Assembly: GCA_000318405.1 (NCBI GenBank)
Contig: KB291745.1
Coordinates: 1 to 47,758 of the forward strand
Length of the DNA stretch: 47,758 bases
Direction of reading: 5' to 3'
From: Brevundimonas diminuta 470-4
Lineage (GTDB): Bacteria > Pseudomonadota > Alphaproteobacteria > Caulobacterales > Caulobacteraceae
Shown piece by piece: positions 19,514 to 26,075 of the stretch. Under the pieces are notes generated by a model. That model was not told where the DNA came from, did not search any database, and saw only the letters and a list, made by a program, of their open reading frames with translations. Positions within the stretch are counted from its first letter, which is position 1, and each line of letters opens with the position of its first letter. The position numbers were made by a program, and so were the translations under genes.

Positions 19514-19529
19514 TGTTTCACGTGAAACA
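19514..19529. promoter_or_regulatory. parS site between mnmG and mnmE (perfect)
   Basis: TGTTTCACGTGAAACA, a perfect 16-bp palindrome in the 80-bp gap between the mnmE stop and the mnmG start. Confidence 0.95.
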
Positions 19530-24560: not shown

Positions 24561-25591
24561 TGGGCGCCGATCCGCTTCAGAACCTGCTCGACATGGGCGA
24601 TCGGCACGTCCGGCAGGATGCCGTGGCCCAGGTTGAAGATCCACGGCCCCTGGCCCCAGGCCTCCATCAGTTGATCGACGCGGCGGTCCAGCGCCTCTCC
24701 GCCCGCGCGCAGCAGCAGAGGGTCCAGCGCGCCCTGGATGGGTTTGATCTTCTGCAGGCGCTGGCCGACTTCCAGCGGACAGGCGGTGTCCAGCGCCACG
24801 CCCTGCACGTCGCAATCGCGCGCATAGCGTTCGGCCAGAGCCGCCGAGCCTCTCGGGAAGCCGATCAGGGGTACGGTGACGCCCAGTTCCCGGGCGCGGG
24901 CGACCAGCTTCTGATGCGGTTTCAGCACCAGGCTTTCGAACAGGTCGTCGGGCAGGCCCTCGGCCCAGCTCTCGAAGATCTTCAGCACCTGGGCGCCGGC
25001 GTCCTGCTGCATCTTCAGATAGTGGGCGGTGGCTTCCACCAGAACGTCCAGCAGACCATAGACGATCTCGGGCTGGGTATAGGCGTAGGTGCGCGCCAGA
25101 CCGCGCTCGCCCTTGCCCATCGTCCGGTGCTCGCCGTCCAGCATATAGGTGGCCACGGTCCACGGCGCGCCCGCAAAGCCGATCAGGGCGCGCTCAGGCT
25201 CCAGTTCCGCGCGCACCAGGCTGAGCGTCTGGCCCACGGCCTTGAGGGCCTCTCCAGCCTGCTGAGCCTTGTCGGCCATCGACTGCACCGACGGCAGGGC
25301 GCCGAGCCGCGGCCCTTCCCCCGCCTCGAACCACACCTTTTGCCCCAGGGCGCCGGGGATCAGCAGGATGTCGGCGAAGACGATGGCGGCGTCGAAGCCG
25401 AAACGGCGCATCGGCTGCAGGGTCGCCTCGGCCGCCATCTCCGGGTTCAGGCAGAAGGCGATGAAGTCCGGCGCCTTGGCCCGAAGCTCACGGTATTCCG
25501 GCAGGTAGCGTCCGGCTTGACGCATGAACCACACAGGCGGGCGAGAAAGGGTTTGGCCCTGGAGAGCCTGGATCAGAAGGGGCGTGCTCAT
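24557..25591 (-). CDS. hemE: Uroporphyrinogen decarboxylase
   Basis: Converts uroporphyrinogen III to coproporphyrinogen III. 344 residues from ATG 25591; the frame begins 36 bp earlier, but homologues start near STPLLIQAL. Signatures: PVWFMRQAGRYLPEYREL (N-terminal, with the conserved Arg pair), FADILLIPGALG, GFAGAPWTVATYMLDG, GFPRGSAALAERYARD and GHGILPDVPIAHVEQVL. First gene of the haem-rho run, with its promoter inside the putative origin. In Caulobacter the hemE promoter region is part of the origin, so this position is informative. Confidence 0.95.
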   Translation of the reverse strand: MSTPLLIQALQGQTLSRPPVWFMRQAGRYLPEYRELRAKAPDFIAFCLNPEMAAEATLQPMRRFGFDAAIVFADILLIPGALGQKVWFEAGEGPRLGALPSVQSMADKAQQAGEALKAVGQTLSLVRAELEPERALIGFAGAPWTVATYMLDGEHRTMGKGERGLARTYAYTQPEIVYGLLDVLVEATAHYLKMQQDAGAQVLKIFESWAEGLPDDLFESLVLKPHQKLVARARELGVTVPLIGFPRGSAALAERYARDCDVQGVALDTACPLEVGQRLQKIKPIQGALDPLLLRAGGEALDRRVDQLMEAWGQGPWIFNLGHGILPDVPIAHVEQVLKRIGAQ

Positions 25592-25631
25592 GTCTTGGGC
25601 TTTAGGATGCACACCCCCAAGCCTCAATCCC

Positions 25632-25663
25632 TATTCAGATTTAAGAATTGAAAGAATTAGAGG
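25632..25663. promoter_or_regulatory. AT-rich segment at the hemE side of the origin
   Basis: About 30 bp composed almost only of A and T (TATTCAGATTTAAGAATT then GAAAGAATTAGAG) in a region that is otherwise GC-rich. Candidate DNA-unwinding element and/or hemE promoter core. Confidence 0.5.
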
Positions 25664-25822
25664 TTGGAAGCAGGGCCGGGGAGCGCGGGGATAACCCTGG
25701 GCCGTCCCGGTTGGACTCCGTCTTGTCCCCGTTTCGCGACGAACGAATCCGAGGCTTGGGCGGCCGGGGTGTGAGTCATGGGGATAAGCCGTGAAACACC
25801 CGCCAGACTCGGGTTTGTCTCT

Positions 25823-26015
25823 GGGCGCCGTTGTGGGTGAATCCACGGGCGCCGAATTTGGACAGGCTCTCCTGCCCACAGCATGGGATGAAACTTCGGC
25901 GCCCAGGCGGACGACTCCGGCGCCGATCGCAACAACGGCGCCCGCGATCCCCGCTCGCGACCGACGACGGGGCTTGCTACAGGATTCGGCGCCCGGTCTT
26001 TCACGAACGGCGCCC
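25823..26015. repeat. Seven GGCGCC-centred repeats in the origin
   Basis: GGCGCC at 25824, 25848, 25898, 25919, 25937, 25988 and 26009. Six share the extended form WWCGGCGCCC (the first two in reverse orientation). They fall in groups with centre spacings of about 18-24 bp, and the groups are 50-51 bp apart, near whole numbers of DNA turns. Confidence 0.7.
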
Positions 26016-26075
26016 CGGCTTTTCAACAGGGCGCGGGGATGATCCGACCGTCGCCCAGAAGGAGACGCCGTCCTC

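Follow-up and report, generated by a model that had tools for sequence, protein, structure and literature searches.

A conserved array of GGCGCC sites in the presumptive origin region of a Brevundimonas clade without CtrA boxes at this locus

In the textbook account of Caulobacter-type bacteria, CtrA bound at the origin prevents one of the two daughters from replicating, and in E. coli the GATC sites are served by a solitary methylase, Dam. According to the sections of PMC7987155 considered here, the Caulobacter crescentus enzyme CCNA_03741 methylates cytosine in GGCGCC and has no partner nuclease. Its orthologue in Brevundimonas subvibrioides is Bresu_0174, and in this species neither a partner nuclease nor GGCGCC methylation was detected, the method used being blind to m5C. 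The corresponding sections of PMC12907096 list CCNA_03741 among two solitary cytosine methylases, the second of which, ScmA, methylates YGCCGGCR. Here, we describe a cluster of seven GGCGCC sites in the presumptive replication origin of Brevundimonas diminuta 470-4, of which we found no description in the portions of the open-access literature that our search covered.

The origin region and its seven GGCGCC sites

The analysed window is a stretch of 47,758 nucleotides, contig C28 of the B. diminuta 470-4 genome (3.34 Mb, 79 contigs). The intergenic gap that carries the sites is flanked, according to Pfam, by a URO-D gene (PF01208, hemE), whose ATG start lies at 25591 on the minus strand, and by a Kinase-PPPase gene (PF03618, DUF299). 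Beyond the DUF299 kinase/pyrophosphorylase gene, Pfam identified genes with Maf, shikimate dehydrogenase, CoaE, and exonuclease domains, and to the left of the gap lie genes with Rho, TrmE, GidA, GidB, ParA, and ParB domains. Two exact parS sites are present in the window, at 19514 and 21119, together with further ones at one to two mismatches, and no dnaA was found among the ORFs of at least 330 aa at 29.7–37.0 kb of the window. GC skew within the window itself is weak, with its minimum near 20 kb; in a close relative, B. diminuta ATCC 11568, cumulative GC skew over 400 kb is lowest at 2,440,388, about 5 kb away from the array. With parAB/parS and the GC-skew minimum nearby, the hemE–DUF299 gap fits a Caulobacter-type origin region, an assignment that takes the C. 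crescentus gene order around Cori as its reference.

The original prediction had placed seven GGCGCC copies within 191 bp of this gap, and all seven positions were confirmed (Table 1). Six of them are exact copies of WWCGGCGCCC, as had been proposed, sites 3, 5, 6, and 7 on the plus strand and sites 1 and 2 inverted, and the seventh, at 25919, has the minus-strand sequence ATCGGCGCCG and falls outside the exact WWCGGCGCCC form. The orientations are therefore mixed, with four plus and three minus sites, and the intervals range from 18 to 51 bp. The motif at 25976..25983 resembles the −10 consensus. The repeat, written as WWYGGCGCCC, does not match the DnaA box TTATNCACA, and the weak DnaA-like sites of the gap are separate from it; in the terrae group, the counterpart of the site at 26020..26028 is TTTTCCACA. 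The W-box consensus was taken from the part of PMC4285127 considered here. As a side observation, GANTC sites average 5.5 per origin in the array origins defined below vs 2.4 in 67 others, with only two to three in the terrae group.

Table 1. Features of the hemE–DUF299 gap (window coordinates).
Feature	Position	Strand	Remark
Intergenic gap, Cori-type origin region	25592..26075	.	hemE to DUF299 start
Site 1, GGCGCC in AACGGCGCCC	25824..25829	-	
Site 2, GGCGCC in TTCGGCGCCC	25848..25853	-	similar spacing recurs outside the clade
Site 3, GGCGCC in TTCGGCGCCC	25898..25903	+	
Site 4, GGCGCC in ATCGGCGCCG	25919..25924	-	sole site broken in a relative (L002)
Site 5, GGCGCC in AACGGCGCCC	25937..25942	+	
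Site 6, GGCGCC in TTCGGCGCCC	25988..25993	+	just after GATTC (GANTC) and the GCTACA −10-like motif; recurs outside the clade
Site 7, GGCGCC in AACGGCGCCC	26009..26014	+	similar spacing recurs outside the clade
DnaA-box-like TTATCCCCA	25779..25787	-	1 mismatch to TTATNCACA; contains the W-box core TCCCCA
Weak DnaA-box-like TTTTCAACA	26020..26028	+	2 mismatches to TTATNCACA
−10-like motif GCTACAGG (GCTACA), possible DUF299 promoter	25976..25983	+	
Seven GANTC sites, CcrM-type target	25714, 25745, 25773, 25806, 25839, 25913, 25983	.	

The word GGCGCC is common in this DNA, with 149 copies in the window vs a shuffle mean of 79, so that a single copy means nothing. However, nowhere else in the window, nor in 400 kb of ATCC 11568, do copies lie as densely as the seven in these 191 bp; in both, the runner-up among separate stretches of equal length has four. 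When the 448-bp gap segment 25628–26075 was shuffled with its dinucleotides preserved, at most five copies arose, and none of 20,000 shuffles reached seven, which bears out the earlier claim that the repeats exceed chance expectation. Among the 64 six-base palindromes, GGCGCC ranks first by far in the array origins (8.4 per origin) and also first in the other Brevundimonas origins (2.3 per origin). Its clustering in the origin is well above background, a feature that methylase targets display in origins of the Dam/SeqA type.

The proposed spacing near whole DNA turns, on the other hand, did not withstand analysis: at 10.5 bp per turn, the intervals correspond to 2.29, 4.76, 2.00, 1.71, 4.86, and 2.00 turns, and the phase coherence (R = 0.22) was equaled by random placement in 72% of draws. 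Coherence of 0.66–0.68 was obtained at an assumed repeat of 10.0–10.25 bp, among 11 values scanned. An iteron array with one orientation and whole-turn spacing was consequently rejected (four plus and three minus sites, R = 0.22, P = 0.72). In the B. diminuta 470-4 genome, a tight direct pair of the long form (3–33 bp between) occurs six times, three of them in this array; the other three lie inside long ORFs, and the six include no intergenic second operator. The triple pattern of GGCGCC sites has 58 matches in the same genome. Separately, a GGCGCC-containing unit of about 45 bp was observed head to tail at G000:C44:101453-101548.

Conservation of the array and loss of CtrA boxes at the origin

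For comparison, 81 origins were assembled from the window and the best 80 of 263 loci, a choice that over-represents relatives of the window. Origins were labeled as array-bearing by register and not by count alone; the origin of L017, which holds seven GGCGCC in a different layout plus one CtrA box, was thus scored as non-array. The array was identified in 14 of the 81 sampled origins, all in one clade, which comprises the diminuta group (the window and L001–L006), the bullata group (L007, L010, L018), the terrae group (L065, L079, L080), and L030. In a hemE–DUF299–Maf protein tree, computed by a quick method with five further genomes, the array maps to one change, and the 14-row clade has an SH-aLRT value of 100. 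L002, a MAG labeled Bordetella, is placed within the B. diminuta group and is likely mislabeled.

Over the 14 array origins, 97 of the 98 hexamer copies are intact (the exception being site 4 of L002) and 40 of the 42 hexamer columns are invariant. Mean pairwise identity is 0.993 for the hexamers and falls to 0.67 for their 4-base flanks and to 0.64 for the spacers. The 24-50-21-18-51-21 spacing is retained in ten of the 14, including L002 without its site 4, and L018 and L030 deviate from it by a single base; L007 and L010 are one base off and additionally carry 11- or 22-bp inserts with further GGCGCC. The flanks of the canonical sites are biased, with W at −3 and −2 in more than 90%, Y at −1 in 98%, and C at +1 in 82%. 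Eight of the 14 origins contain extra GGCGCC, 20 copies in all, of which three possess the WWY flank. The alignment that the original prediction had suggested as a check therefore turned out as expected for a real array in close relatives, where the hexamers are kept and the bases between them vary, though within one clade only. There is good support for the array as an origin element under selection. Of the further suggestion of a lineage-specific iteron-like array, the selected array and the restriction of most of it to one lineage (14 of 81 origins) stand, and the regular iteron layout does not. In L007, L010, and L018, near −235 to −225 from the DUF299 start, we further observed extra GGCGCC within an inverted repeat (e.g. 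GATAAGGCGCCTTATC) that joins it to TTATC half sites.

Parts of the layout are found beyond the clade. Relative to random placement, the distance between sites 2 and 7 recurs in 27 of the 67 non-array origins (2.0 expected), the distance between sites 2 and 6 in 18 of 67 (2.2 expected), and the 21-bp step from site 6 to site 7 in 15 of 67 (0.3 expected); sites 2, 6, and 7 predate the array. In a family-wide sample of 40 further genomes, out of 116 with a DUF299 match, WWCGGCGCC is present in seven of the 40 origins. Two GGCGCC, one of them within TTCGGCGCCC, are also present in the origin of G096, a Caulobacter-like genome with a CtrA that matches the typed C. crescentus protein at every residue. 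Together, the recurrence of these three sites and the GGCGCC of family-wide and Caulobacter-like origins identify the array as the expansion of an older motif.

The array origins also differ in their CtrA boxes, defined as TTAA-N7-TTAA with up to one mismatch within 460 bp in the 81 origins. Such a box is absent from all 14 array origins and present in 66 of the 67 other Brevundimonas origins, the exception being L022. With a CtrA matrix that was built from the very non-array origins it then scores, these 66 non-array origins reach 15.5–27.7, and no array origin exceeds 2.7, against a 95th percentile of 4.9 for shuffled array origins. CtrA boxes were likewise missing from all 13 array loci of 4.9–6.9 kb (the window is not among them), and across the family a box lies within 550 bp of 38 of the 40 origins. 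A CtrA-controlled Cori was thus rejected for the array clade on its 0/14 boxes and its matrix scores below the shuffled 95th percentile. As a separate observation, the genome of L022 is a Brevundimonas MAG whose origin has neither array nor CtrA box.

CtrA itself is encoded in 13 of the 14 array genomes, the missing one being a 2.2-Mb assembly, and is 87–89% identical to C. crescentus CtrA, with zero to three differences in the DNA-binding domain from the copy of B. diminuta 470-4. A CtrA box lies 170–172 bp upstream of ctrA in 13 of 13 loci from array genomes (L214–L226); this upstream box sits amid GANTC sites and was present in only three of the seven non-array genomes tested. CtrA has therefore been kept, and its origin boxes were lost on the branch where the array appears, although the exceptions L017 and L022 indicate that gain of the array and loss of the boxes are not strictly tied. 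From the shared branch and place, we infer that the array took over from CtrA; the GGCGCC array, together with the missing CtrA sites, suggests that the clade likely controls its origin by a different switch.

Candidate GGCGCC methyltransferases

The original prediction knew of no described origin-binding protein for this site. A reader of GGCGCC, CCNA_03741, has in fact been described (PMC7987155); the sections of that report considered here mention no origin role for it. The genome of B. diminuta 470-4 encodes two m5C methyltransferases, on contigs C6 and C32. The C6 enzyme (G000:C6:18508-19665) belongs to group A, one supported tree group that also includes a Caulobacter-like enzyme encoded 131 kb before the end of an origin-numbered contig; 1 of the 40 rows of this tree (alba_L015) was dropped as too short. 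By its position, the Caulobacter-like enzyme fits CCNA_03741, following a gene-number argument. The B. diminuta enzyme is a member of the orthologue group in a solitary setting, and its predicted GGCGCC specificity is taken from the report on the Caulobacter relative. In support of its solitary nature, Pfam revealed no restriction enzyme among the tested ORFs within about 4.5 kb of the C6 gene, whose neighbors are YdbH-like, acyltransferase, CHAP, tryptophan dioxygenase, and DUF2383 genes. The C32 enzyme (L146) lies beside a gene resembling the C-terminal part of TmtA and may belong to a defense system.

Grouped by identity to the B. diminuta enzyme (group A, at least 64%; group B, 44–56%; some are fragments, L033 and L008), the enzymes of the 81 genomes divide into 37 with A and 42 with B, five genomes carrying both and seven neither. 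Joint occurrence in five genomes compares with about 19 expected if A and B were independent, a figure that ignores kinship; the two sister groups appear to replace each other across Brevundimonas. Every one of the 14 array genomes encodes an enzyme of group A or B, and in six it is B alone. Within the presumed target-recognition region, the end is conserved among A, B, and Caulobacter (identity 0.65–0.68, vs 0.46–0.53 for the whole protein), and the earlier part is more divergent at 0.31–0.41 (A vs B 0.31, compared with 0.65 at the end). The nearest solved structure, by the catalytic part of the B. diminuta enzyme, is M.HhaI, and HhaI recognizes GCGC.

Enzyme and origin sites are associated across the sample: WWYGGCGCC is present in 65 and absent from nine origins of genomes with an A or B enzyme, vs two and five of those without (Fisher p 0.001). 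Four independent tree pairs contributed none for and none against this association. L032 and L035 have the enzyme and no GGCGCC in the origin, and L024 has three GGCGCC in the origin and no enzyme. SeqA (PF03925) was found in none of the five genomes searched, with a positive E. coli control.

Possible modes of action and comparison with known systems

We tentatively favor, with less than even confidence, a reading in which the array serves as a platform methylated by the solitary m5C methyltransferase, whose methylation state would time initiation by DnaA. In one ancestor, as the pattern on one branch suggests, about three older sites may have grown to seven, and the origin CtrA boxes were lost, in either order. 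The predicted enzyme would methylate both strands of each GGCGCC, and after passage of the fork, the seven sites would stay hemimethylated until the enzyme returns. The methylation state could then alter binding of DnaA or of a reader over the intervening weak DnaA-like sites, or could act directly through duplex stability, and the altered binding would gate re-initiation, the task of CtrA in the sister species. This reading is favored by the specificity reported for the Caulobacter relative, by conservation that ends sharply at the hexamer, and by the presence of an enzyme in each array genome. Likewise, 17 of the 20 extra copies lack the long-form flank, as if the hexamer alone counted. The kept flanks of the seven sites argue for an additional or different reader, since A/T at two flank bases, a preceding Y, and a mostly following C are more than a hexamer methylase should need. 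Also counting against methylation are the six array genomes that have only paralogue B, of putative specificity and close to A only at the end of the presumed target-recognition region, the enzyme/site mismatches of L032, L035, and L024, the absence of support from the four tree pairs, the lack of SeqA in the five genomes searched, the exceptions L017 and L022, and the negative B. subvibrioides result of PMC7987155, obtained by a method blind to m5C. The more specific proposal that the clade swapped CtrA for cytosine methylation as origin brake, with the hemimethylated array being read much as GATC sites are under Dam and SeqA in E. coli and the enzyme replaceable by its paralogue, appears rather unlikely.

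Alternatively, and this we regard as quite possible if still doubtful, a sequence-specific protein might bind WWYGGCGCCC directly, in line with the original prediction, and have taken over origin control from CtrA, any methylation being incidental. The flanks of the canonical sites, which are biased, oriented, and kept, speak for such a binder, as do the lack of the WWY flank in the 17 extra copies and the fixed distances of sites 2, 6, and 7 in other Brevundimonas (2–7 in 27/67, 6–7 in 15/67). The six flank columns, however, are far more variable than the hexamer, and outside the origin the tight direct pair is confined to ORFs, so that this single pattern reveals no second operator such as an autoregulated promoter; we know of no WWYGGCGCCC-binding protein of such kind. 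A role outside replication, in which sites 6 and 7 would serve the DUF299 promoter as operators or as early-transcribed elements and the other sites would act in promoter or leader-RNA control, seems improbable to us. The GCTACA −10-like motif does lie 5 bp before site 6, and many relatives have GCTATAG at the −10-like position; yet sites 1–5 are upstream of this motif, and three terrae-group origins keep the hexamers and lose the motif. The single strand also folds better than shuffles (z −3.9), but such folding comes naturally to any palindromic hexamer that recurs in both orientations, and the covariation term was +0.43 with changes on both sides in two of 39 pairs, so that RNA structure was rejected for want of covariation support. 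A minus-strand match to the ZMP/ZTP riboswitch (20.7 bits vs a cut-off of 39, E 0.47) was taken as chance.

Chance, a coding background, or the trace of an unannotated ORF can be given hardly any credence and is already contradicted. The hexamer is about twice as common in the window as in shuffled DNA, and a 161-codon open frame does cross the gap on the minus strand; nevertheless, the shuffled gaps never yielded seven copies, GGCGCC leads all six-base palindromes in the origins, and conservation stops at the hexamer edge. A hidden ORF was rejected because no reading frame would survive the indels of 1, 11, and 22 bp that occur between sites.

A clade that has CtrA without origin boxes implies that control of the origin by CtrA is exchangeable and offers a natural experiment on how this happens. 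Should the array be a replacement that works via methylation, cytosine-5 methylation would acquire a role in origin control in bacteria, and if the methylation reading is true, a widespread solitary methyltransferase would gain a function.

Like plasmid iterons and other oriC regulator arrays, the GGCGCC array consists of short repeats with conserved spacing inside an origin. Unlike iterons, it is mixed in orientation, uneven in spacing, and without helical phase, and we know of no initiator gene linked to it, as iteron systems have. With the GATC sites of E. coli oriC, as presented in the part of PMC4285127 considered here, it shares the crowding of many copies of a short palindrome, here a putative methylase target, around DnaA sites, and the candidate enzyme would be solitary like Dam; in contrast to GATC, Dam, and SeqA, the target here is GGCGCC, the predicted methylase is a cytosine-5 enzyme, and SeqA was not found in five of five genomes. 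As in C. crescentus with CCNA_03741, the B. diminuta genome contains a member of the CCNA_03741-type orthologue group without a neighboring nuclease, and for neither CCNA_03741 nor ScmA (YGCCGGCR) do the considered sections of PMC7987155 and PMC12907096 describe an origin role. The hemE–DUF299 neighborhood and the weak DnaA-like sites resemble C. crescentus Cori, which has CtrA boxes, G-boxes, and W-boxes, whereas the array clade has no CtrA boxes; GGCGCC itself is shared with a Caulobacter-like Cori, as two copies there and as seven in a fixed layout in the array clade.
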